Shown here: one piece after another, positions 22,450 to 35,000 of the stretch
How positions within the stretch are numbered: position 1 is the first letter of the stretch
Layout of the letters: each line of letters opens with the position of its first letter
Source: Candidatus Marispirochaeta associata
GTDB lineage: Bacteria > Spirochaetota > Spirochaetia > JC444 > Marispirochaetaceae
Length of the DNA stretch: 64,000 bases
Reading direction: 5' to 3'
Assembly: GCA_001749745.1 (NCBI GenBank)
Contig: JWTM01000101.1
Coordinates: forward strand, 310,001-374,000
Translations under genes and position numbers: made by a program
Notes under the pieces: generated by a model
What the model was told of the DNA's origin: nothing
Seen by the model: the letters and a program-made list of their open reading frames with translations, nothing else
Database searches by the model: none

Positions 22450-24279
22450 ATGCGACGCTCCCTTGCTTTGAAGATATTGATTCCTACCCTGTTCTTGCTG
22501 CTATTCAGTGTCGTCGGGACGGGACTTCTCAGCTATCTCTATACCCGAAAAGCCTATAACGAGGAGATCCGCAGCGACTACTTGCGCAATTATATGATCT
22601 CCATCGGCAACGAGATGGAGGTCGAGATCGGCAAGGCCATCGAAGCCTCTCTGACCCTGGCCTCATCGCCGGTGAGCTTGGCCTGGGTCGAGGGAGAGGA
22701 GCAGGACCAGCGTCTTAAGAACTATGTGCTGGATACCCTGGATATGCTGACTCAAGAATTCGGTTACTTCACCACCTTCCTGGTGAGCAATACAACCTAC
22801 AACTACTGGTCCAACGGCCAGACGCTACTGGACGTGGTCGATCCGAGCGATCCCGACGACTCCTGGTTCTTCTCTTCCATGGAGTCTCCCAATCCCTACG
22901 ACCTGAATCTCGACTATAACGAGGAGCTGGGAGATACCTTTATCTTCGTAAACGCTTATATGCGTCGCAACGACAGGATGCTGGGGACCGCCGGAGTCGG
23001 CGTAACCTTGACCAGCCTGGTAAGCGCCTTCGATGAACAGATTTCCACCGAGGATACGAGTATTTTGCTTACCAATCAGGCCGGGGAGATCCTCGTCTCC
23101 AACACCGAGGCCTTGGTTGGTTCTAGCGTGGAAGAGCTCTTTACGGGCAGCAATTTTGCCGATCTGCAGCAGCAGCTTAGGGAGCAGTATGTCGATCTGG
23201 ATGGTCTGCGTTACGCGCTTATCGAGAAACCGATCCTCGGATCGGACTACTCCTTCGTGCTCGCGGTGCCGGAGCGGGAGCTTAGCGGGTTCATCGATTC
23301 AATCCTCTACTTCACCATGGCCGCCATCGCCGCCTCGGTTCTGATTGCGATCCTGCTCTTGCTTCTCATCGTCCGCTACATTATCACCCGGCCGATCATC
23401 GAGGCGGTTCGCTTTGCCGAGCAAGTAGCCGCCGGGGATCTTAGGGCGCTCATCGAAAGCCGCCGCAGGGATGAGATCGGTCAGCTTTCAAGCTCTTTGC
23501 AGCAGATGGGAACCAAGCTCGGCGATATCATGGGAGAGATCAGAATCGCGTCCGACCAGGTAAACAGCAGCTCTCAGCAGATGAGCGATACGGCGGCTAT
23601 GCTCTCCGAGGGGGCTTCTCAGCAGGCATCCTCCATAGAGGAGGTCTCCTCATCCATGGAAGAGATCAGCGCCAATATCAGCCAGAATGCAGAAAACGCC
23701 ACCGAGACCGAGCGAATCGCCAGCTCCGCCGCATCCGAAGCCGAGGAGAGCGGGGAAGCGGTACGCGAGGCGGTCAGCGCTATGCGCTCTATCGCCGAGA
23801 AGATCAGCATTATCGAAGAGATCGCCCGTCAGACCAACATGTTGAGCCTCAATGCAAGCATCGAAGCCGCCCGGGCCGGAGAGCACGGTAAAGGCTTTGC
23901 GGTAGTTGCCGCGGAGGTCGGAAAGCTGGCGGCCCGCAGTAAGGAGGCGGCCGTGGAGATCTCCGATGTGAGTCGGGATACCCTCGTTGTCTCCGAACGA
24001 GCCGAAAAGACCCTCTCCGAGCTGGTGCCGACCATCCGTAAGACAGCGGAACTCGTTCAGGAGATCGGCGCCGCCAGTCGGGAACAGAACGGCGGCGTCC
24101 AGCAGATCAATCAGGCTGTTTCTCAGCTCGACATCGTCGTGCAACAGAATGCGGCCAGTTCCGAGGAGCTGGCCTCGATCGCCGCCGCCCTGGCGGGCCA
24201 GGCCGGCGAACTGGAACGCTCGATCGCCTATTTCCGGCTTAATGGGGAGGCGAGCGAGGAGCCCTTATTGCTCAACTAG
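22450..24279 (+). CDS. Methyl-accepting chemotaxis protein
   Basis: 609 aa receptor. Membrane helix at about 8-30; a periplasmic Cache-type sensor of about 240 residues; a second helix near 278-303; a HAMP domain ([20 protein letters not shown]); and a cytoplasmic signalling hairpin whose tip reads [20 protein letters not shown] then [15 protein letters not shown] (from about residue 457). No CheR-docking pentapeptide at the C-terminus. A strong GGAGG precedes ATG; a TATAAT at 22339-22344 lacks a well-spaced -35. It is convergent with the sulfo-TK operon and shares the four bases CTAG as stop region with the transporter gene. The ligand is unknown. Confidence 0.96.
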
Positions 24280-25718
24280 TACAACCCCGAAATCATCCCC
24301 ACCCCGTAGATCGCCGTCGCCACCAGGGCGGAGGCGACGATGGTAATCGGAATACCCGCTAACGCCATGTCCTTGATGGAGAAATAGCCGGCGGAGTAGG
24401 GGATTACGTTGGTCGGGCTTGAGGTGACGAGAATAAAGGCCATCGAGGCGGTCAGGGCCGCGGGGATGGCGATGGTCAGCGGAGCGACGCCGATGTTCTG
24501 AGCCAGGGCGATCATTATCGGTATGACGATGGTCGCGGTAACGGTGTTGGACGAGAAGGCGATCTTCAGGAAGCTGACCGCCAGGATCACCAGGAAGACC
24601 TGCAGGAAGGGGTGGATCCCGCCGATGCCGCCTAAAAGAGCTACCGCCAGCCAGTTGGCCGTACCGCTTTCGTAGAGGGACATACCTAAGGAGATCCCGG
24701 TTACTACCAGGAGAATACCGCTCCAGCTGATCTCCCGCTCCACGCTCTTCCACTCCAGGGTGGCCACCCCGGGAATGAAGAAGAGACAACCGGTAAACAG
24801 AACCGGCATCGAGATCGGAATCGAGATACCGAGAAGCGTCGACAAGAGGGGCGACCCGATCCAGAGGACTACCGTCAGGAGGAAGACCACCAGGGTTACC
24901 CACTCCTCCCGGCTCATGGAGGGAAGATCGTCGAATTCGGCCTTCAGCTCTTCCCGGCTTTTCTTTAAGTGCTTCATCTCCGGGGGAAAGAACTTGAGCA
25001 GGAAGAACCAGACCGGTAGGAGCAGCAGCGCCGCGGCGGGAACGCCGTAGGCCATCCAGCCCAGGAAGGTCAGCTCCACCCCAGCCATCTCCTTCAAGAA
25101 ACCGATAGCGATAGGATTTGGCCCGGCCCCCGACGGGGTCGCGATCCCGCCGATGATCGAACCCCAGCAGATAGAGATCATCAACCCCTTGCCGAAATTC
25201 GATTTGAGGGGTTCTACCCCCTCCTCCTGCAGGATCGCCCGCCCTAAGGGCATCAGCATGGCGGCGACTGCCATGTTGGTCAGCCACATGGAGAGGAGGG
25301 TTCCGGTAATCAGGAAGCCGAAGATGATCATCGCCGTGGAGTTCCCGGTCTTCGAGAGGAGAAAGACCGAGATCCGCTTGCCCAGCCCCGAGTGGGTAAT
25401 GAAGGCCGAGAGGATCAGCACTCCTAAAAAAAAGGCGAAGATATGGTTCCCGAAGCCGACGGAGATATGCTCCTTAAAGCTTCCCACCTTGAAGAGGGTA
25501 AGCAGCAGGATGCTCAAGAGGCCGGTCACATGGAAGGGAACCGCTTCGCTCATCCAGAGGATCAGCGCAAAGAGGAGTACTCCCATGGCGGCCTGTCCGG
25601 CCTGGCTCAATAGGATGCCGTCCACGGTGCGGACCCCTTCGGGAAGTACGACGAAGCGAAAAAGAGCGGCGACTAGGAGGGCGGAGAGGAAGATTAGCAG
25701 CTTGGTTCTGGTTTTCAC
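24276..25718 (-). CDS. DASS/SLC13-family anion transporter, probable sulfoacetate exporter
   Basis: 480 aa, 11-12 membrane helices. Family hallmarks: an N-terminal [34 protein letters not shown] in the first half, and [18 protein letters not shown] plus [13 protein letters not shown] in the second; the SNT-like motifs bind sodium and carboxylate or sulfate anions. It is the last gene of the operon, overlapping the SucD-like gene by 4 bases (ATGA). Since the preceding enzymes should yield sulfoacetate, export of that anion is the natural role, but uptake of another dicarboxylate or sulfonate is possible. Transport direction cannot be read from the sequence. Confidence 0.88.
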
Positions 25719-26611
25719 GCCTCGGCCCCTTCGGCCAGTTTGGCCTTCAATAATTCGCCTACCTCACGGGGGCGTCTGGCGACCGCGGCGCCGACCGCCT
25801 CTAAGGCCTCGGTCTTGGCGTCGACGGTACCCTTGCCGCCTACGGCGATAGCCCCGGCGTGGCCCATGCGCTTCCCGGCGGGCGCGGTGCGGCCGCCCAT
25901 GAAGGCCACCAGGGGTTTCGTGAAGCGGCCGGACTCGATCGCCTCGGCGACCTCCTCCTCCATGGTGCCCCCCAACTCACCGATGATGACCACCGCATCG
26001 GTCTCGTCGTCGGCCTCATAAGCCGGCAGAAACTCGGCGAAGCGAGAGCCGGGGATCTGGTCCCCGCCGACGCCGATCAGGGTGGAGACGCCGAAGCCTG
26101 CGGCCACCACCATGGCGGTGATCTCATTTGTCAGGCTCCCCGAGCGGGTCATGACTCCGATCCGTCCCGGGGTGTAGACCCGTTTGATCCAGTAGGGGAA
26201 GAAGCCCATCATCGCCTGGTCGGGGCTGATGACCCCCGAGGTGTTGCCGCCCACGACCTGAGCCCCGGCGTCCAGGGCCGCGGCCCGGATCTCCAGGGTC
26301 TCCTGCAGCGGGATTCCCTCGGCTACGGTGACGATCTTCTTGATTCCCGCCTCCAGGGCCTCGAAGACGGCATCCTTGGTGAAGCGGGGCGGGACGAAGA
26401 GCATGGCCGCGTCGATCTTCTCTTCCGCCGCCGCCCGGCGCACGGAGTGGTAGACGGGAATCCCAGAGACCTCTTGCGCCTCTTTCCCGGGGGTGACCCC
26501 GGCGACGATCCGGGTGCCCATGCCCTGCATATGCTCGGTCCAGTAGCTCCCTTCCTTGCCTGTGATCCCTTGAATCAGGACCCGGGTATCGGACTCGATG
26601 AAGATGCTCAT
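25715..26611 (-). CDS. Succinate-CoA ligase alpha subunit (SucD) family; probable sulfoacetate-CoA ligase
   Basis: 298 aa. CoA-binding Rossmann domain at the N-terminus and flavodoxin-like ligase domain with the phosphorylated histidine in RTAPAGKRMGHAGAI (His251). Overall it matches SucD, but the acid-binding loop that reads GPNCPG in true SucD is GGNTSG (121-126), suggesting another acid. It forms an ADP-forming acyl-CoA ligase with the SucC-like protein encoded just before it (4-base overlap). Placed directly after an acylating aldehyde dehydrogenase, it most likely makes ATP by hydrolysing the acyl-CoA that enzyme forms; sulfoacetyl-CoA is the inferred substrate (role of SqwKL). Confidence 0.88.
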   Translation of the reverse strand: MSIFIESDTRVLIQGITGKEGSYWTEHMQGMGTRIVAGVTPGKEAQEVSGIPVYHSVRRAAAEEKIDAAMLFVPPRFTKDAVFEALEAGIKKIVTVAEGIPLQETLEIRAAALDAGAQVVGGNTSGVISPDQAMMGFFPYWIKRVYTPGRIGVMTRSGSLTNEITAMVVAAGFGVSTLIGVGGDQIPGSRFAEFLPAYEADDETDAVVIIGELGGTMEEEVAEAIESGRFTKPLVAFMGGRTAPAGKRMGHAGAIAVGGKGTVDAKTEALEAVGAAVARRPREVGELLKAKLAEGAEA

Positions 26612-27729
26612 GTCTCTGCTCCTTGTGCTTCCCGGGCCAGCTGAACGGCGGTGCGGACCGCCTCTTCGGTGTCGTAGAGCGGGGTGAGCCCGGCTTCTTT
26701 CAGGATGCGGTCGGCCTCCTCCTCGTTGGTCCCGCGGATGCAGGTGACGATGGGCCGGTCGGGCTTGAGCTCCTCAATTGCCGCGACAATGCCATCGGCC
26801 ATTACGTCGGCCCGGGCGATGGTTCCGAAGGTGACCACCAGGATTACCCTGGCCTCGTTCTTCAGGCAGAGGCGCATCGCCTCCTTGGCCTTACGGTAGT
26901 TGGGGCCGCCGAACTCGAGGTAGTTGGCCACCCGGCCGCCTTCATAGTTTACCAGGTCATAGACGGTGGTAGTCAGTCCCGCGCCGGCGCACATCAGGCT
27001 GATATCCCCGTCGAATTGCAGATAGGGAATCCCCTCCTGGGCCGCTTCGAAGGCCGCCTCGCTCTCGTAGTACTCCCGGCCGGGTACATAGGCCGGCTGT
27101 CTGAAGCCCGAAGCATCGTCGATGACGAACTTGCCGTCCCCACAGACCAGATTGCCGTCGGCGGTAATAAAGAGCGGATTGATCTCCGCCAGCTCCGCAT
27201 CCTTAGCGCGGAAGAGCTTGTAGAGTTTCATTAAGAGAGCGCTTAAGGGCTTATAGGCTTCCGGGGCGATGCGGTAGGCCAAATCCCGGGCCTGGAAGGG
27301 CATCAGTCCCCGGTCGATGGGGACGATCTCGCGGATGATCTTCTCCGGCGCCTCCTCGGCCAGGGTCTCGATCTCGACTCCGCCGGCGGAGGAGGCCATG
27401 ATCAGGATGCCGCCCGAGACGGGATCGGGCGACATAGAGAGGTAGAGCTCCGACTGGAAGTCGACCGCCTCTTCTACCATCACGGCTGCGCCGGATTTAG
27501 TCCGGATATCCCGGGCCAGCTCCACCGCCTCTGCGGCGGTATCGGCCTTCTTGACCAATCCCGCCTTCCCGCGGCCCCCGTGGAGGACCTGGGCCTTTAT
27601 CATGCAGGGGGCGCCGATGGAATCCACCGCGGCCCCGATCTGCGATTCTTCCGCGGCTAGGGCGTTCTCCGGTACCGGCAGGCCCGCCTCCTTGAAGAGC
27701 TCCTTGGCCTGGTATTCGTAGAGCTTCAC
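26608..27729 (-). CDS. Succinate-CoA ligase beta subunit (SucC) family; probable sulfoacetate-CoA ligase
   Basis: 373 aa. ATP-grasp domain (MKLYEYQAKELFKEAGLPVP; MIKAQVLHGGRGKAGLVK; AELAEINPLF) and a C-terminal CoA-ligase domain. Residues that contact the acid in SucC are changed: VNGAGL reads CAGAGL (247-252) and NIFGGI reads VTFGTI (299-304). This supports a substrate other than succinate. Starts with GTG at 27729, one base after the stop of the aldehyde dehydrogenase gene. No other TCA-cycle gene is near, so it should not be taken as the housekeeping succinyl-CoA synthetase. Confidence 0.88.
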   Translation of the reverse strand: MKLYEYQAKELFKEAGLPVPENALAAEESQIGAAVDSIGAPCMIKAQVLHGGRGKAGLVKKADTAAEAVELARDIRTKSGAAVMVEEAVDFQSELYLSMSPDPVSGGILIMASSAGGVEIETLAEEAPEKIIREIVPIDRGLMPFQARDLAYRIAPEAYKPLSALLMKLYKLFRAKDAELAEINPLFITADGNLVCGDGKFVIDDASGFRQPAYVPGREYYESEAAFEAAQEGIPYLQFDGDISLMCAGAGLTTTVYDLVNYEGGRVANYLEFGGPNYRKAKEAMRLCLKNEARVILVVTFGTIARADVMADGIVAAIEELKPDRPIVTCIRGTNEEEADRILKEAGLTPLYDTEEAVRTAVQLAREAQGAET

Positions 27730-27730
27730 C

Positions 27731-29146
27731 CTATTCCGTCCCTTCTATCCGGTATTCGTTCCAGAACTCGCCCCAGATATCCTTATCCGTCGGTTTGACC
27801 GGGTCGAAGGGGTAGGAGAGCCAGGTGATGTTCATAAAGTGCTTGTAGTAGATGTTCTCGGTGGTAATGTTTCCTCCCCAGGTGCCGCAGCCGAGGGTGA
27901 CCGTCGAGGGCATACCGTTGAAGAAGTTCCCGCCGTTACCGGGGGCCTGGGGTTGGCGCACTAGCACCCGGGAGGTGTGCATCTCGAGCGCCATGCGTTC
28001 CACGTACTCCTCTTTGAAGGTGTGGATGCCGCAGGAGTGGCCGGTCCCGGCGGCGTTGGTAAGCCGGACTAGGGTATCCATCGCCTCGTCGAAATCGCTG
28101 TAGCGCCAGAGGGTCAGCACGGGACTAAGCTTCTCCCCGGCGAACTTGTCCTCCTCCACCGATTCGCCCCCTTCCACCATCAGGATTCGAAAGGGACCCT
28201 CCAGGTCGAGGCCGGCGTCGGAGGCGATCTGCATGGCCGAGACGGCGACCACCGCCGGATTCAAGGCCATGTGTCCCTTTTTATTCGGTTTCCACATATG
28301 GGCTTTGAGGGTCGCCTTCTGGGAGTCGTCCATCAGGAGGGAGCCCTCGGCGAGCATCGCCTTCACGAACTCGTCGTAGACCGAGTCGTGGATAATGACC
28401 GAGTTCTCGCTGGAGCAGGAGGTGGCGCAGTCGAAGGCCTTGCTTAAGGCGATCTTCTTGGCCGCATCGGCCACATCGGCGTCCTCGGCCACGATCTGCA
28501 CCGCATTACCCGGTCCTACGCCGTAGGCGGGGGTGCCCGAGGAGTAGGCCGCCTTGACCATGGCGCCGCCGCCGGTGGCAAGCACCAGATCGACCCGCTT
28601 CATCAGATCCCCGGTCTTTTCGATGCTCGGCTCGGCGATAATTTGCACCAGATCCTCCGGGGCGCCGATGCGTTTCAGTTCTTCCCGCATCAGTTCGACG
28701 GCCAGACCGGAGGATTTTTTCGAGCGGGGATGGGGGGCGAAGATCACCGCATTCCGCCCTTTGAGGATAGAGACTGCGTTCGACGCCGGAGTAGCCGTCG
28801 GATTGGTGACCGGGGTTAAGGCCCCGACGATCCCTACCGGCTTGGCGTATTTGCGGATCTTCTTGACCGGATCATCCTCGATTACCCCCACCGAGGGTTT
28901 GTCCTTAACGTCGTTGATAACGCCTAAGACCTTCACCTTGTGTTTCGTAATCTTATCGGCCACGGAGCCCATGCCGGTCTCATCCACCGCCGCTTCAGCC
29001 AGGCGTTTGATATTCTCGTCCTTGTACATCGCCCAGGCCACGGCCAGGCAGACGTCGTCCACCTCTTTCTGGGTGAACCCGGCGGCGATCTCCGCCGCCT
29101 TCCGGGCCCGCTCGAGTAGGGTATCCAGCTCTCTATCCATTTCCAT
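27731..29146 (-). CDS. CoA-acylating aldehyde dehydrogenase; probable sulfoacetaldehyde dehydrogenase
   Basis: 471 aa of the AdhE-N/EutE/SauS type, which oxidises a two-carbon aldehyde with NAD(P) and CoA to the acyl-CoA. Seen: the cofactor-binding GGGAMVKAAYSSGTPAYGVG, catalytic Cys244 in FDCATSCSSENSV (Cys240 is an extra cysteine), and C-terminal TLGCGTWGGN. No microcompartment shell genes or alcohol dehydrogenase domain are present, which argues against ethanolamine use. In the sulfo-TK setting sulfoacetaldehyde is the expected substrate (role of SqwD). ATG at 29146 sits behind AGGATAGCAGG. Confidence 0.87.
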   Translation of the reverse strand: MEMDRELDTLLERARKAAEIAAGFTQKEVDDVCLAVAWAMYKDENIKRLAEAAVDETGMGSVADKITKHKVKVLGVINDVKDKPSVGVIEDDPVKKIRKYAKPVGIVGALTPVTNPTATPASNAVSILKGRNAVIFAPHPRSKKSSGLAVELMREELKRIGAPEDLVQIIAEPSIEKTGDLMKRVDLVLATGGGAMVKAAYSSGTPAYGVGPGNAVQIVAEDADVADAAKKIALSKAFDCATSCSSENSVIIHDSVYDEFVKAMLAEGSLLMDDSQKATLKAHMWKPNKKGHMALNPAVVAVSAMQIASDAGLDLEGPFRILMVEGGESVEEDKFAGEKLSPVLTLWRYSDFDEAMDTLVRLTNAAGTGHSCGIHTFKEEYVERMALEMHTSRVLVRQPQAPGNGGNFFNGMPSTVTLGCGTWGGNITTENIYYKHFMNITWLSYPFDPVKPTDKDIWGEFWNEYRIEGTE

Positions 29147-29182
29147 CCTGCTATCCTTCAGCTCTCTCTATCGTTTGTTTCG

Positions 29183-29662
29183 CTATTTGAAGTTTTTATC
29201 TTCGATCGCCTGAACGCCCTTAAAGGCGTTGGTCAGGAATTCCTTCTTGAACTCCATCTTCTCGGTAAACTCAACGCCCAGCCAGGCGTCGACGATCTGG
29301 GTCCCTAAGAAGGGAGCGGTAATCCAGCCGCCCATGGTGATAACATTGGCGTTGTTGATGATCTTGCCTCGTTCGCCGGCGAAGATCCCGTCGGCCACCA
29401 CCGCATAGACCCCTTTGTACTTGTTGGCCACAATTGCCATACCCTGGGCTGTGCCGCATATCAGGATGCCTTTGTCGGCCGTTCCGGCCTGAATCGCTTC
29501 GGCCACTTTCGGGGCCTGCTCGAAGTAGGGTTTGGGGGCATCGGGAGATTCGATCCCGAAGTCGGTAATCTCCACGTCTCCCCGCTCTTTAAGGTGTTTT
29601 ACAATAGCCTCTTTTAAGGGAAATCCTGAGAGATCGGATGCAATTGCCAGTTTGATACTCAT
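29183..29662 (-). CDS. RpiB/LacA-family isomerase; probable 4-deoxy-4-sulfoerythrose isomerase
   Basis: 159 aa, usual RpiB length. The catalytic base Cys is kept (GILICGTAQGMAI, Cys69, E. coli RpiB Cys66). However, the ring-opening His99 is Ile102 (GKIINNANV instead of SRQHNDTNV), phosphate-contacting Arg83 is Tyr86, and His10 is Leu11 (DLSG). A tetrose with sulfonate at C4 has no O4 to close a ring and carries no phosphate, so these losses fit a sulfoerythrose/sulfoerythrulose isomerase (role of SqwI). Alignment to E. coli RpiB was made by eye from memory. Overlaps the transketolase C-terminal gene by 4 bases, behind GGAG. Confidence 0.87.
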   Translation of the reverse strand: MSIKLAIASDLSGFPLKEAIVKHLKERGDVEITDFGIESPDAPKPYFEQAPKVAEAIQAGTADKGILICGTAQGMAIVANKYKGVYAVVADGIFAGERGKIINNANVITMGGWITAPFLGTQIVDAWLGVEFTEKMEFKKEFLTNAFKGVQAIEDKNFK

Positions 29663-30606
29663 ACTCGTACTCCTTCTTTCTTTGCCGCCGCTAAAGTCTC
29701 CGCCTTCTCGGCGATGACGGCGTCGTTCATGCCGTAGCGCTCCATCAGATACTCGAGGGTTCCCACCTCGCCGAACTCATCCTGGACGCCGTGGCGCTTC
29801 ATCAGGGTAGGGCGCTGCTCGCACAGCACCTCGGCTACCGCAGAACCTAGTCCGCCCTTGACCTGATGATTCTCGCAGGTCAGGATCGCGCCGGTCTTCT
29901 CGGCATATTCTAGGACCAGCTTCTCGTCCAGGGGTTTGACGGTGTGCATGTCGATTACCGCCGCGTCGATACCTTTTTTGGCCAGCATCTCCGCCGCCTT
30001 CAGGGATTCGGGAACCATCACCATTCCCATGGCGATGATGGTCAGATCCTTGCCGTCCCGGAGCACCTTCCCCTTACCGAGCTCGAACTCTTCCGAATCC
30101 TCGTAGAGTTTGACTCCGCCCTTGCGGTGCAGCCGCATGTAGGTCGGCCCGTTATGGGCGGCGGAGAGACGGGTCAGCTTCGCGACCGAGGTCAGGTCGG
30201 CCGGCTCGAATACCACCAGATCGGGGATGGTGCGCATCAACCCCACATCCTCGAAGGGCATGTGGGTGCCGCCGTTGTACTGGGCGGTAATTCCCGGATC
30301 GGTGCCCACCAGGTGTACCGGAAGCTTAGCATAGTTGGCGGAGAGGAAGAACTGATCAAAGGTTCTTCTGGATGCGAAACAGGCGAAGCTCGCGGCAAAA
30401 GGGAGTTTGCCGACGGCGGCTAATCCGGAGGCGACGCCGACCATATTGGCCTCGGCCACGCCGACGTTGATCGCGCGCTCCGGGAATGATTTGGAGAAAC
30501 TGCCGGTGCCGGTGGCCTTCATCAGATCCGCTTCGAGCACGACGATGCGTTCGTCCTCGCCGGCCATCTCGATCAGGGTGTTGGTGTATACCTCGCGCAT
30601 ATCCAT
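29659..30606 (-). CDS. Transketolase, C-terminal subunit (split type)
   Basis: 315 aa holding the pyrimidine-binding domain (MDMREVYTNTLIEMAGEDER) and the C-terminal domain. The catalytic Glu that activates thiamine diphosphate is present (NVGVAEANM, Glu52). The acceptor-site motif GEDGPTHQP of E. coli transketolase reads QYNGGTHMP (109-117): the His is kept (His115) but the Asp that reads the substrate C2 hydroxyl is Asn111. It pairs with the N-terminal subunit encoded one base upstream. In the proposed pathway it moves C2 units from sulfofructose, and again from sulfoerythrulose, to glyceraldehyde-3-phosphate. A plain pentose-phosphate role is the alternative. Confidence 0.9.
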   Translation of the reverse strand: MDMREVYTNTLIEMAGEDERIVVLEADLMKATGTGSFSKSFPERAINVGVAEANMVGVASGLAAVGKLPFAASFACFASRRTFDQFFLSANYAKLPVHLVGTDPGITAQYNGGTHMPFEDVGLMRTIPDLVVFEPADLTSVAKLTRLSAAHNGPTYMRLHRKGGVKLYEDSEEFELGKGKVLRDGKDLTIIAMGMVMVPESLKAAEMLAKKGIDAAVIDMHTVKPLDEKLVLEYAEKTGAILTCENHQVKGGLGSAVAEVLCEQRPTLMKRHGVQDEFGEVGTLEYLMERYGMNDAVIAEKAETLAAAKKEGVRV

Positions 30607-30607
30607 A

Positions 30608-31441
30608 TTAGTTCACCTCCTGGCCGGTCAGTCGGACGATCGCCTCTTTGGCCGTCTCGTAGTCGAAGGGCATGTTGTGATTCCCCAGGTTATCCTCGGC
30701 GAAGAAGGCGCCTTTGCCTTTGACGGTATCGCAGACGATCATGCTCGGTTTACCGGTCTCGGCGTCCGCCGCCTGAATCGCCGCATCCAAGGCCTCGAGG
30801 TCGTGTCCGTCCACCCGTTGGGTGTGCCAGCCGAAGGCTTCCCATTTGGCAGCGATATCCTCCAGATTCATGATGTCCTTGGAGTAGCCGTCGATCTGCA
30901 TCTTGTTGAAGTCGGTAAAGGCGATCAGCCGGTCCAGCTTGAAGTGGGCCGCGCAGAGGGCCGCCTCCCAGACCTGCCCCTCGTTGGATTCCCCGTCGCC
31001 GATTACTGCGAAGATGCGGGCGGGATTCTTGTCCATCCTAAGACCCATGGCCATGCCGATCGCCGCCGAGAGTCCCTGCCCCAGGGAGCCGGTGGTCATA
31101 TCGATCCCGGGGGTGCGATTCTTGTCGCAGTGGCTCGGCAGCCGGGTGCCGCCTACATTGAGGGTATGGAGCCACTCCTCGGGGAAGAATCCCTTGTCGG
31201 CCAGAACCGAGTAGAGGGCCGGACCGGCATGTCCCTTGGAGAGGACCAGGCGGTCGCGATCCTCCATGCTGGTGTTCTTGGGATCAACCTTCATGTGACG
31301 GTAGTAGAGAAGGGTTAGAATTTCGACGATGGAGAGGGCGCCGCCGATGTGGCCCACGCCGAGATAGCCGATCTGGTCGATGGTTAATACACGTATATCC
31401 CGCGCCTTTCGGGCGAGACTCTTTGTATCGATGGCATTCAC
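30608..31441 (-). CDS. Transketolase, N-terminal thiamine-diphosphate-binding subunit (split type)
   Basis: 277 aa. Motifs: GYLGVGHIGGALSIVEILT, LSKGHAGPALYSVLADKG, TTGSLGQGLSAAIGMAMGL and the TPP/Mg site GDGESNEGQVWEA with the distal N of DFNKMQ. Starts with GTG at 31441; GGAG lies 11 bases upstream. It is the first gene of the operon that runs transketolase N, C, isomerase, aldehyde dehydrogenase, SucC-like, SucD-like, transporter. The divergent ROK gene and a shared palindromic operator lie upstream. Confidence 0.92.
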   Translation of the reverse strand: MNAIDTKSLARKARDIRVLTIDQIGYLGVGHIGGALSIVEILTLLYYRHMKVDPKNTSMEDRDRLVLSKGHAGPALYSVLADKGFFPEEWLHTLNVGGTRLPSHCDKNRTPGIDMTTGSLGQGLSAAIGMAMGLRMDKNPARIFAVIGDGESNEGQVWEAALCAAHFKLDRLIAFTDFNKMQIDGYSKDIMNLEDIAAKWEAFGWHTQRVDGHDLEALDAAIQAADAETGKPSMIVCDTVKGKGAFFAEDNLGNHNMPFDYETAKEAIVRLTGQEVN

Positions 31442-31459
31442 GATACACTTCGCTCCTTT

Positions 31460-31479
31460 CCCGGTAATCCGGGTTTTTT
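31460..31479 (+). terminator. Small hairpin with T run between divergent genes
   Basis: CCCGG-TAAT-CCGGG (31460-31473) followed by TTTTTT on the plus strand. It could stop antisense transcription entering the ROK promoter. On the minus-strand mRNA the same hairpin would sit just upstream of the transketolase ribosome-binding site. The stem is only five pairs. Confidence 0.4.
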
Positions 31480-31481
31480 GC

Positions 31482-31538
31482 TTGACTATTTAATCGTGTC
31501 GTACTTTAATGAATTATTACTTACTTTATGTAAGTAAT
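31482..31538 (+). promoter_or_regulatory. ROK gene promoter with palindromic operator
   Basis: TTGACT (31482-31487), a 17-base spacer and TTTAAT (31505-31510) make a promoter for the ROK gene. A perfect 9-base inverted repeat, ATTACTTAC-N5-GTAAGTAAT, lies at 31516-31538 over the expected start site; its core TTACTT-N5-AAGTAA (31521-31537) recurs in the GH31 promoter. Because the region is divergent, the same site can also control the transketolase operon; no convincing minus-strand -35/-10 pair was found. Confidence 0.65.
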
Positions 31539-31634
31539 GAATTGAATCTATCACTGTTGCCGTGGCTTGTAAAGGGTTTTTCTGTACAGGAGAAAGTATT
31601 CTTGATAAGATCAGGTATACAGAATGAGGCGGGT

Positions 31635-32849
31635 ATGCGCAGCGGGCGACACAATCCTCTCCGCGGATCGGACATCCGGGAGCGAAACGAAAAGATTATT
31701 CTCTCCCTAATCTCCCGCAAGGGCAGGCTCTCCCAGTCCGAGGTGGTGGCCATGACCGGCCTCAAGCCGCCGACGGTCTTAAGGATCTTCGCCAAGCTGG
31801 TCGAGAGCGGGATGATCCGCGTTTCGTCGATTCAGGACCGGGATCCCGAGCGGAAGGGGAGGCGACCGGTCTTCTACGAGCTCGTCCCCGACTGCGCCTA
31901 TGTGATCGGCGTCGATTTCTGGGCCCAGAACGCCTCCATCGTCATCGTCGACTTCGCTAATAATCCGGTCTATACCAGCCGGCTCCATTTTAAGCGAGAT
32001 CTCGATGCCGGGCAGGTCGTAAAAGAGCTGATAGAGCTGATCCGGAGCTCGGTGGAGCGCTCTGGTCTGGATGGGGACGATATTATCGGGATCGGCATCG
32101 GCGCCCCGGGCAGAATCGATACGGCCACCGGGACGGTAATCTACTACGCCCGTATCCCCGGGATGGTGGAGTATCCCTTATCGGAGGAGATCAAGGCCGA
32201 GTTCGACTATCCCGTGCTGGTCAACAACAATACCAATGTGATCGCCCTGAACGCCTGGAATCGGGGCGAATCGCGGGGATTGCGTTCCTATATCACTATC
32301 CTGATCCGTTCCGGTGTGGGCGGCGCCTACCTACAGGAGGGGCATCTCCTTCAGAACGGACGGCAGACCGTATTGGAGCTGGGACATCTCTCTGTGGAAC
32401 GTATTGCCGGGGAGAACGGCTGCGGAGACTCCTGCTGTCTCGAAGACCGGATCGCCGAGGGGACCCTGCTGGAGGAGACGAGTGAACTCTTCGGGATCGA
32501 ATCGATCGAGGAGCTCGACAGTGCGATCGAGAAGGACGACCCCAAGTTGCTCTCATTTCTGGATACCAAGGCCCGTATTCTGAGTTATATCTGCAGCGAC
32601 CTCTATCATATTTTTAATCCCGAGGGGATGCTGCTAATCTCCCGTTCCCGGGCGCTTTCCCGTTTTCTCGCATCCAGGCTGGACGTCCACTTCCACGATG
32701 TCTGCGATTTGCCTCAATCGGTATCGAAGCTGACCTTCTTAGGCGATGTCTACGATCCGACCCAGGCCTGCATCGGAGCATCCCGTCTGATATTCGACGC
32801 CTTCTTCACCTCATCATTGACCGGGGTGGAGACAATCGTCCAGCAGTGA
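31635..32849 (+). CDS. ROK family transcriptional repressor of the sulfo-TK cluster
   Basis: About 404 aa from ATG at 31635 behind AGGCGG. An N-terminal winged helix-turn-helix (RNEKIILSLISRKGRLSQSE then VVAMTGLKPPTVLRIFAKL) is joined to a ROK sugar-binding domain (YVIGVDFWAQNASIVIVDF; GIGIGAPGRIDTATG; VLVNNNTNVIALNAWNRG). A zinc-type cysteine cluster is seen in ENGCGDSCCLEDRIAEG. It lies between and divergent from the catabolic operon. The matching palindromes at its own promoter and at the GH31 promoter suggest it represses both until a pathway sugar binds. The inducer (sulfoquinovose or an intermediate) is inferred. Confidence 0.9.
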   Translation: MRSGRHNPLRGSDIRERNEKIILSLISRKGRLSQSEVVAMTGLKPPTVLRIFAKLVESGMIRVSSIQDRDPERKGRRPVFYELVPDCAYVIGVDFWAQNASIVIVDFANNPVYTSRLHFKRDLDAGQVVKELIELIRSSVERSGLDGDDIIGIGIGAPGRIDTATGTVIYYARIPGMVEYPLSEEIKAEFDYPVLVNNNTNVIALNAWNRGESRGLRSYITILIRSGVGGAYLQEGHLLQNGRQTVLELGHLSVERIAGENGCGDSCCLEDRIAEGTLLEETSELFGIESIEELDSAIEKDDPKLLSFLDTKARILSYICSDLYHIFNPEGMLLISRSRALSRFLASRLDVHFHDVCDLPQSVSKLTFLGDVYDPTQACIGASRLIFDAFFTSSLTGVETIVQQ

Positions 32850-32863
32850 TGTCGATGAATTGA

Positions 32864-32906
32864 TTGACAGTGCCCCGATCTCGTGATTTACTTACAGAAA
32901 GTAAAT
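32864..32906 (+). promoter_or_regulatory. GH31 gene promoter with ROK-type operator
   Basis: TTGACA (32864-32869), a 17-base spacer and TTTACT (32887-32892). The palindrome ATTTACTT-ACAGA-AAGTAAAT (32886-32906) covers the -10 and has the same TTACTT-N5-AAGTAA core as the site at 31521-31537, so repressor binding would block the polymerase. Confidence 0.7.
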
Positions 32907-32945
32907 AAATGAGATCCCGGATAATAATGACAAGCGAGGGCCGAA

Positions 32946-35000
32946 ATGACCTTACAGATAACTGAAACCGATCTTTCCTATGATTTTGCCGCAGGCGCGC
33001 TCCGGGTCTTCTACAAGAACCGGCTCATCATTGAATCCCGAAATGATCTTCCCTTCCTGACGATCGCCGAGGGCGAGGGGCACTATAAAAATGTGCGCGG
33101 CAACTACCGGATCCGGGACAGCCGCAAACGGCGCATGGAACTCGATCCCAGTGAACCGAAAGTCGTACCGGGCCGGGGACTGACCGTCGATTTCGGGGGC
33201 ATTATCGAGTGCCGGATCAGCGTAGGCGAGGATCTCTGCCGGCTCAGTTTCTCTAAACTGGAGACGCCCCGGGCCTTGGGCTGGAACCGATTAATCCTTC
33301 GTCTGCCGGCCGTACCGGGCGAGCGGATCTACGGCGGGGGCGAGCAGTTCTCCTATGTCAATCTCAGGGGGCGCCATACGGTCAACTGGGTTCAGGAGTC
33401 GGGCGTCGGACGCGGTCGAAATGCCATCAGTCTCTTCGCTCAGCTCCACTCCGGCGAGGGCGGTACCCGGCAGTCCACTTACTATCCGCTGCCGCAGTTT
33501 ATCTCCTCGGAAAACTACTACGTTCATGCCGACTGCGCCCGCTATTCGAGCTTCGACTTTACCGGCCGCAACTCTCACCGACTGGTCTTCTGGGATACCG
33601 ACTTCACCCTGACCATCGGCACCGCCAAGAATCCCCGCAAGCTGGTCGGACGTCTTTCTGCCACCAGCAAGCGTCAGCCGCCCCTCCCCGAATGGGTCTA
33701 CGACGGGATGATTCTCGGGCTGCAGGGGGGCAAGGAGACCGTCTCCGCAAAGTTGGAGAAGGCACTAGGCCACGGGATTCAGGTGGCCGGTCTCTGGTGC
33801 CAGGATTGGGAGGGGGTGCGCTTCACCGCCTTCGGTCAACAGCTATTCTGGGACTGGAAACCCGACGAGAAACGCTACGGCGACCTCAAGGCCTACACGG
33901 AGGAGCTTAAGAATCGTGAACCGAATCCGGTGCGCTTTCTGGGCTATATCAATCCCTTCCTCGCCTTGGAAGGAGAGCTCTATAAAACCGCGGCCGAGAA
34001 GGGCTACTGCGTCAAGAACCGCAAGGGCGAAGATTATCATGTTACCATAACCACCTTCCCCGCCGCGCTCTTAGACCTTACGAATCCCGAAGCCTGTCTC
34101 TGGATAAAAGAGGTTATCAAGAAGAATATGCTCGGCAGCGGTCTTGCCGGTTGGATGGCCGATTTCGGCGAATACCTCCCCACCGATGCGGTGCTCTTCT
34201 CCGGGGAGGATCCCGAGGAGTTTCACAACCGTTACCCCGCCGTCTGGGCCAAACTCAACTACGAAGCCCTGGAGGAGGCCGGGATGGAGAAGGAGGCCCT
34301 GATCTTCATGCGGGCCGGATTCTCCGGCGGCATCGAGTACGCCATGAGCGTCTGGGGCGGGGATCAGCTGGTCAGCTTCAACCGGGACGACGGCTTTCCT
34401 TCCGCGATCCGGGCGGGGATCTCCCTCGGTCTCTCCGGGGTCGGCAACTATCATACCGATCTGGGCGGCTATACCACCATGGCCTGGGTCAAGCGGCGGA
34501 AGGAGCTCTTCTTTCGCTGGGCGGAGATCGCGGCCTTCATGCCGGTGATGCGTACCCACGAAGGGAACCGGCCTTTAAGCAACTGGCAGTTCGACCGGGA
34601 CGAGGAGACCCTGGAGCTTCTGGCGCGGATGACGAAGATCTACGCCGGCCTGAAGCCCTATCATCTCAAGCTGAGCGCCGAGTACCAGGAGAAGGGAATG
34701 CCGCCGATTCGTCACCTGCTGCTCCATTACCCCTCGGACCGGGAGGCGCGGCGCATCGAAAACCAGTATCTCTACGGGAAGGATCTGATGATCGCCCCCA
34801 TAACGACCCCGAAGGCGATCCAGCGGCGGGTCTATCTGCCCGATGCGGTCTGGGTTCACGCCTGGACCGGCCGGCGCTATAAACAGGGCTGGCGTCCCAC
34901 CGAGGCGCCTCTGGGCGAATCGCCGGTCTTCTACCGTCACGACTCTCCCTTCCGGGAACTCTTCGAGGAGATCTTCGGGCCCTATCAGCGTTCCGAGTAG
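32946..35000 (+). CDS. GH31 family alpha-glycosidase, sulfoquinovosidase (YihQ)-like
   Basis: 684 aa without signal peptide, close in length and sequence to E. coli YihQ, which frees sulfoquinovose from sulfolipid glycosides. Nucleophile Asp406 in GWMADFGEYLPTD and acid/base Asp473 in WGGDQ match YihQ Asp405 and Asp472. Of the residues that hold the sulfonate in YihQ, Gln262, Gln288, Trp304 and Tyr508 are kept (Gln260, Gln286, Trp302, Tyr509), but Arg301 is Gln299 (TAFGQQLFWDW). Alignment was made by eye from memory of YihQ. Substrate is therefore probably a sulfoquinovoside or a close analogue. Its own promoter carries the ROK operator; it overlaps the convergent gene by 16 bases. Confidence 0.88.
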   Translation: MTLQITETDLSYDFAAGALRVFYKNRLIIESRNDLPFLTIAEGEGHYKNVRGNYRIRDSRKRRMELDPSEPKVVPGRGLTVDFGGIIECRISVGEDLCRLSFSKLETPRALGWNRLILRLPAVPGERIYGGGEQFSYVNLRGRHTVNWVQESGVGRGRNAISLFAQLHSGEGGTRQSTYYPLPQFISSENYYVHADCARYSSFDFTGRNSHRLVFWDTDFTLTIGTAKNPRKLVGRLSATSKRQPPLPEWVYDGMILGLQGGKETVSAKLEKALGHGIQVAGLWCQDWEGVRFTAFGQQLFWDWKPDEKRYGDLKAYTEELKNREPNPVRFLGYINPFLALEGELYKTAAEKGYCVKNRKGEDYHVTITTFPAALLDLTNPEACLWIKEVIKKNMLGSGLAGWMADFGEYLPTDAVLFSGEDPEEFHNRYPAVWAKLNYEALEEAGMEKEALIFMRAGFSGGIEYAMSVWGGDQLVSFNRDDGFPSAIRAGISLGLSGVGNYHTDLGGYTTMAWVKRRKELFFRWAEIAAFMPVMRTHEGNRPLSNWQFDRDEETLELLARMTKIYAGLKPYHLKLSAEYQEKGMPPIRHLLLHYPSDREARRIENQYLYGKDLMIAPITTPKAIQRRVYLPDAVWVHAWTGRRYKQGWRPTEAPLGESPVFYRHDSPFRELFEEIFGPYQRSE

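Follow-up and report, generated by a model that had tools for sequence, protein, structure and literature searches.

The sulfoacetate variant of the sulfo-transketolase pathway is made up of SqwGH, SqwI, SqwD and SqwKL (PMC12890257, PMC11659671), and SqwI, described from Clostridium sp. MSTE9 and from the Acholeplasma sulfoacetate variant, is the putative 4-deoxy-4-sulfoerythrose isomerase of this pathway. According to a 2022 review, the direct measurement of SqwI failed because its substrate isomerises spontaneously (PMC9594981). In the related ribose-5-phosphate isomerase RpiB, His99 (positions in the family are given in E. coli numbering) opens the furanose ring, and the phosphate ligands reported are His11, Arg137 and Arg141 in the Leishmania enzyme and Arg113 in the Mycobacterium one (PMC4783025, PMC3755991), corresponding to His10, Arg133, Arg137 and Arg110. 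A shorter-chain substrate was argued in 2011 for an RpiB-like protein of Coccidioides by its authors, from the same His to Ser change that is found in the tetrose-phosphate isomerases EryI and DerI (PMC3212906), and in Yarrowia a relative of EryI takes part in the use of erythritol (PMC5992420). A literature search, with Liu 2021 and Chu 2023 outside its scope, found no discussion of the residue pattern of SqwI.

The Probable SqwI Gene and Its Operon

The DNA analysed here (the window) is a stretch of 64,000 nucleotides from Candidatus Marispirochaeta associata, in which an open reading frame on the minus strand (29183..29662), starting with ATG and running from 29662 to 29183, encodes an RpiB-family protein of 159 amino acids, predicted to be SqwI, a 4-deoxy-4-sulfoerythrose/4-deoxy-4-sulfoerythrulose isomerase. 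The protein matches Pfam LacAB_rpiB (PF02502) with an E-value of 1.9e-35, remains below the cut-off of the NCBIfam rpiB equivalog (97.4 versus 138.65 bits) and is far below those of the LacA and LacB equivalog models; furthermore, it is the product of a single gene, with no LacA/LacB pair. The AlphaFold model (mean pLDDT 90.9) adopts the RpiB fold, and among the RpiB crystal structures that it matches is 2vvr, the H99N mutant of the E. coli enzyme, with TM 0.79/0.86.

The gene lies in an operon whose members are all on the minus strand. Its start shares four bases with the stop (29659) of the upstream gene, which encodes the SqwH-like C-terminal half of a transketolase (29659..30606; Transket_pyr and Transketolase_C) and is preceded by the gene of the SqwG-like N-terminal half (30608..31441; Transketolase_N, 1.9e-55). 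Downstream are found a SqwD-like CoA-acylating sulfoacetaldehyde dehydrogenase (27731..29146; SauS model NF047625, E-value 1.3e-157, 525 bits against a cut-off of 600), the SqwK-like beta subunit (26608..27729) and the SqwL-like alpha subunit (25715..26611) of an ADP-forming acyl-CoA ligase, similar to SucC and SucD, respectively, and both below the succinate-ligase cut-off, and a DASS-family anion transporter (24276..25718; TIGR00785, 235.7 bits, above the cut-off of 198.6), possibly a sulfonate exporter. On the plus strand, divergent from the operon, are a ROK-family regulator (31509..32849; PF00480 and HTH) and a GH31 sulfoquinovosidase of the YihQ type (32946..35000; PRK10426, 798 bits, above the cut-off of 553). 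This is the gene set of the sulfoacetate-type sulfo-transketolase pathway, and two features by which SqwI is recognised are found in it, namely a PF02502 protein beside a split transketolase (SqwGH) and the presence of sulfoacetaldehyde-handling genes (SauS-like and SucCD-like) in the same cluster. The assignment to the SqwI type, which a sequence-only reading had proposed, is therefore borne out by operon, fold and Pfam match.

No sulfoquinovose isomerase gene was found in the window, the operon region (24276-35000) included; in the genome bin the FucI-like genes reach no more than 25% identity with the SqvD proteins of other SqwI clusters, and PF07221 (YihS-type) was not found. Among the large SqwI loci, 27 of 43 carry SqvD. 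A split transketolase adjoins SqwI in 76 of 80 loci, and three of the other four are on shorter or cut contigs. Transketolase adjacency taken alone was rejected as a test for SqwI, since a His99 RpiB (L141) and EryI loci also adjoin transketolase genes.

Position 99 in the RpiB Family

The alignment with E. coli RpiB reproduces all four residue pairs that had been proposed by eye: Cys66 corresponds to Cys69 (codon at 29456..29458, minus strand, as for all codons given here), the conserved general base; His99 to Ile102 (29357..29359); Arg83 to Tyr86 (29405..29407); and His10 to Leu11 (29630..29632). The only His of the window protein, His23, is located in helix 1, outside the active site, and is not conserved, so that no realignment can restore a ring-opening His.

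To see how general this pattern is, proteins were collected in two ways. A whole-protein search of 393 spirochaete genomes yielded 28 proteins, of which 22, counting the one from the window itself, have 62-100% identity and six are more distant. Scanning GTDB genomes with sequence patterns returned 80 SqwI loci, mostly from Spirochaetota and some from Chloroflexota; after the removal of duplicates the SqwI set counts 95 proteins, five of which form a sister clade (T9). The SqwIs of Firmicutes, among which is the experimental strain Clostridium sp. MSTE9, are outside this sample, and the Acholeplasma SqwI is likewise outside the clade comparison. No SqwI was found in the viral contigs scanned.

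Position 99 is Ile or Val in 95/95 SqwI-type proteins, Ser in 13/13 proteins of the tetrose-phosphate type and His in 37/37 of the RpiB type, the last group being defined by His99 itself; as the pattern used for the 80 loci included positions 83 and 99, the unbiased support for these two positions comes from the 28 proteins of the whole-protein search. All 95 SqwI-type proteins also have Tyr at 83, Trp at 110, Leu at 134 and Arg or Lys at 95, and the signature is found in none of the 37 His99 proteins. Cys66, Thr68, Gly71 and Asn100 are conserved almost without exception (Cys66 in 94 of 95, with one X). In the 393 spirochaete genomes, each of the 27 transketolase-linked proteins lacking His99 (one of them, L005, linked via SqwD) has Ile or Val at 99, Tyr at 83 and Trp at 110. 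With I/V99, Y83, W110 and L134 fixed in the whole set, the pattern is not one of chance or drift, and the strict restriction of position 99 to Ile or Val points, at the level of sequence, to selection that keeps a small hydrophobic side chain there and not to mere decay.

The loss of the ring-opening His, which fits an open-chain four-carbon substrate, is confirmed for every SqwI sampled. It had also been put forward as a marker of SqwI, and it does separate SqwI from His99 RpiB; as a marker of SqwI only it was rejected, since His99 is also absent from EryI/DerI, from the Coccidioides and Brucella proteins and from LacB. Because tetrose-phosphate isomerases lack it too, the loss, as read from these alignments, is a mark of chain length, that is of four-carbon substrates, and does not tell a sulfonate from a phosphate. 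The earlier view that the sequence predicts the substrate class holds in its open-chain logic and is narrowed to chain length. A better SqwI signature is predicted to be I/V99 with W110, L134 and Y83, together with R/K95.

The Former Phosphate Site and a Candidate Sulfonate Ligand

At the published phosphate ligands SqwI proteins have Leu for His10, Trp for Arg110, Phe (or Trp) for Arg133 and Ala (or Asn) for Arg137, and Leu replaces His134; in the window protein the corresponding residues are L11, W113, F142, L143 and A146, the C-terminal register, and with it the pairs at 133, 134 and 137, being less sure owing to an insertion there. Trp113 (29324..29326) stands in the place of Arg110, Arg113 of M. 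tuberculosis RpiB; Trp is found at this position in 95/95 SqwI, 2/37 His99 proteins and 0/13 of the tetrose-phosphate type. The proposed loss of phosphate-binding residues is therefore upheld for the site as a whole, while one of the residues then named for it has to be withdrawn: Arg83 is not a published ligand, and its replacement by Tyr was rejected as a phosphate marker, as 10 of 37 His99 proteins have Tyr, Phe, Ile or Val at 83 and keep Arg137.

It had been reasoned that such losses are expected of a substrate without phosphate. The substrate still bears a negative sulfonate, however, so an anion must be held, and no ligand had been named for it. Position 95 (Leu in E. coli) is Arg in 90/90 SqwI and in 13/13 tetrose-phosphate proteins and Lys or Arg in 5/5 proteins of the T9 clade; Lys takes the place of Arg in four proteins of the SqwI type. 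No other newly gained cation is shared by all SqwI and all tetrose enzymes, and Arg98 of the window protein (29369..29371) is the best candidate and, by inference from the alignment, the likely sulfonate ligand. In the Coccidioides structure Ser109 contacts the phosphate, and the residue at position 95, Arg105, is coupled to the phosphate via Ser109 and has a halide close to it in the active site (PMC3212906). The C-terminal lysines K135, K139 and K140 were considered as a general sulfonate site and rejected, because they vary within SqwI: this region has Thr, Arg or Ala in L019-L023, and the T9 clade differs.

A few other members of the family deserve mention here. In six RpiB proteins of the Chloroflexota sample (L149, L153, L159, L162, L166 and L171) His99 is present together with Arg at 95, and the phosphate residue Arg110 is lost; the phosphate arginine may have moved in these proteins. 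A very divergent RpiB-like protein with D42P and H10R, encoded on a Streptomyces clavuligerus plasmid (L143:2989-3468), adjoins a B12 radical-SAM enzyme and a DegT aminotransferase and is probably biosynthetic.

The Proposed Tetrose Branch and Its History

The tetrose-phosphate class, identified by gene context as EryI/DerI type, has Ser99 and Arg95 in all of its 13 members. Ser99 proteins are encoded in erythritol, apionate and tetrulose loci (L118, L134, L136-L140 and L144) or adjoin DhaK-type kinases (L129, L150 and L167), and the neighbours of the group include tetrulose kinases of the DhaK type, EryH-like TPI and transketolase. One of these proteins, L118, passes the cut-off of the D-erythrulose-4-phosphate isomerase (DerI) equivalog (255.7 versus 240). 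Of the proteins with known structure, Coccidioides 3qd5 and Brucella 5ifz fit this class best in the alignment; these structures (PDB 3qd5/3sdw and 5ifz), with Ser99 and Arg95, were deposited as ribose-5-phosphate isomerase and are probably misnamed tetrose-phosphate isomerases.

In a tree built without the trait columns, from which the long-branched LacA, LacB, L141 and L143 were left out and whose root is not fixed, a single branch (96/87) parts the His99 proteins from all others, SqwI and its T9 sister form a clade (99/97), and SqwI shares its side of the branch with the tetrose-phosphate proteins. With the trait columns kept, the support of the branch is 84/83 and one long-branched His99 protein falls inside. 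The simplest reading of these sequences is that His99 was probably lost once and that SqwI inherited this loss from a tetrose-handling ancestor, which suggests that the loss predates the sulfo-specialisation.

In the T9 clade (L025-L029) position 9, which is Asp in all the others, is Thr, and position 10 is Arg. The locus L032:7271-7744 lies in a cluster with a cluster-type SqvD (57%), a YihQ-type GH31, DASS and a split transketolase; neither a recognised SqwD nor a recognised SqwF was found close by in the wider locus, which is possibly a further sulfo-transketolase variant with an altered active site.

The kinship with EryI/DerI raises the question of whether the window protein is itself a tetrose-4-phosphate isomerase that supplies erythrose-4-phosphate to the transketolase and is no sulfosugar enzyme. 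In the tree it stands with EryI and DerI on the side opposite to the His99 proteins, like them it has Arg95 but no His99, and among the NCBIfam models the one for D-erythrulose-4-phosphate isomerase (NF051858) is its second-best match. Its score against this model, however, is 104.2 bits where the cut-off is 240; of the pair Ser99 and Arg95 it has Arg98, with Ile102 in place of Ser; and where the phosphate enzymes have Ser99 and, in most cases, Arg110, all SqwI have Ile or Val and Trp. Moreover, the operon accompanies a YihQ-type GH31 and includes a sulfoacetaldehyde dehydrogenase, and neither a tetrulose kinase nor an EryH-like TPI was found in it. We consider this explanation unlikely.

Proposed Function and Mechanism

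From the residue pattern, the clade, the operon and the fold described above we infer, with a probability of about 0.8, that the window gene encodes SqwI, an open-chain 4-deoxy-4-sulfoerythrose isomerase, for which the substrate, the residue roles and a dimeric site are predicted as follows. SqwI would act between the two transketolase steps on the way from the plant sulfosugar sulfoquinovose to sulfoacetate. Erythrose-4-phosphate and its sulfonate analogue have no free C4 hydroxyl, so there is no furanose ring to open and His99 is not needed; the ring-opening step would accordingly be absent, and the substrate would be met in its open-chain form. Cys69 would take the C2 proton, the enediolate would be steadied by Thr71, by loop amides and by Asn103 of the partner subunit, and the return of the proton to C1 would give 4-deoxy-4-sulfoerythrulose. 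In evolutionary terms, the tetrose branch of the RpiB family would have lost His99, probably once, with Ser taking its place in the tetrose-phosphate enzymes and Ile or Val in SqwI; the former C5-phosphate site, now hydrophobic (L11, W113, F142, L143 and A146), would make for a shorter pocket, and the Arg that all tetrose enzymes have acquired at position 95, Arg98 here, likely holds the sulfonate.

As spontaneous isomerisation of sulfoerythrose has been reported (PMC9594981), SqwI might add little catalysis and have another role, for example the protection of a reactive aldehyde or its channelling to transketolase; against this, Cys66, Thr68, Gly71 and Asn100 are near-invariant in the clade and the gene stays with transketolase, which argues for selected catalysis and makes such a role very improbable. 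Least probable of all is that the protein is a standard RpiB which works on ribose 5-phosphate despite the loss of its His. The fold and the Cys/Thr core are retained, and E. coli RpiB H99N retains about 1/26 of kcat (PMC3755991). Against this reading, the corresponding Leishmania mutant H102N is inactive on ribose 5-phosphate (PMC4783025); all or nearly all members of the clade have other residues at the four published phosphate ligands, at Asp42 and at His134; the score stays under the threshold of the RpiB equivalog; and a separate His99 RpiB (L002) exists elsewhere in the same bin, a MAG with 11% contamination.

There is a wider proposal, to which we would give even odds: position 99 would read the class of an RpiB-family protein, with His in the ring-forming C5/C6 enzymes, Ser in those of tetrose phosphates and Ile/Val in those of tetrose sulfonates; one ancestral loss would have founded the tetrose branch, and SqwI would have arisen from it with a hydrophobic wall and one Arg kept for the sulfonate. 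Genes of the RpiB family are by routine given the name ribose-5-phosphate isomerase, and such a rule would correct annotations; with sulfonate use read from I/V99, W110 and L134, it would also reveal sulfoquinovose degraders whose gene cluster is no longer intact; and it would single out Arg98 and the hydrophobic wall for mutation in SqwI. The step from the loss of the ring-opening His to a shorter chain has already been argued in the Coccidioides work; it is the class-wide position-99 rule that is worth testing.

Comparison with Known Systems

With E. coli RpiB, SqwI has in common the fold and Asp9, Tyr43, Cys66, Thr68, Gly71 and Asn100, whereas His99, His10, Asp42, Arg110, Arg133, His134 and Arg137 of the E. 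coli enzyme are all replaced. The galactose-6-phosphate isomerase LacAB shares with it the family and the Cys base but is a heterodimer, in which LacB lacks a ring-opening His because LacA supplies it (His96). The RpiB-like protein of Coccidioides immitis (3qd5/3sdw) resembles SqwI in the replacement of the ring-opening His and in the loss of phosphate residues; unlike SqwI, it is fungal, has Asp at the His10 position and binds phosphate directly through Ser109. EryI/DerI, the Brucella protein (5ifz) included, are like SqwI in a C4 substrate without a furanose, the absence of His99, Arg95, the Cys66 core and the side of the tree, and differ from it in Ser99, in having mostly Arg110 and Arg83, in Gln103 in most of them, in a phosphate substrate and in their erythritol, apionate or tetrulose operons. 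The closest counterparts are the SqwIs of Clostridium sp. MSTE9 and Acholeplasma, with which the window protein shares PF02502 and a place between split transketolase and sulfoacetaldehyde genes; the pathway variant, with SqwD and SqwKL, is the same as the sulfoacetate variant of Acholeplasma, and the window SqwI, unlike these two, is a spirochaete member.
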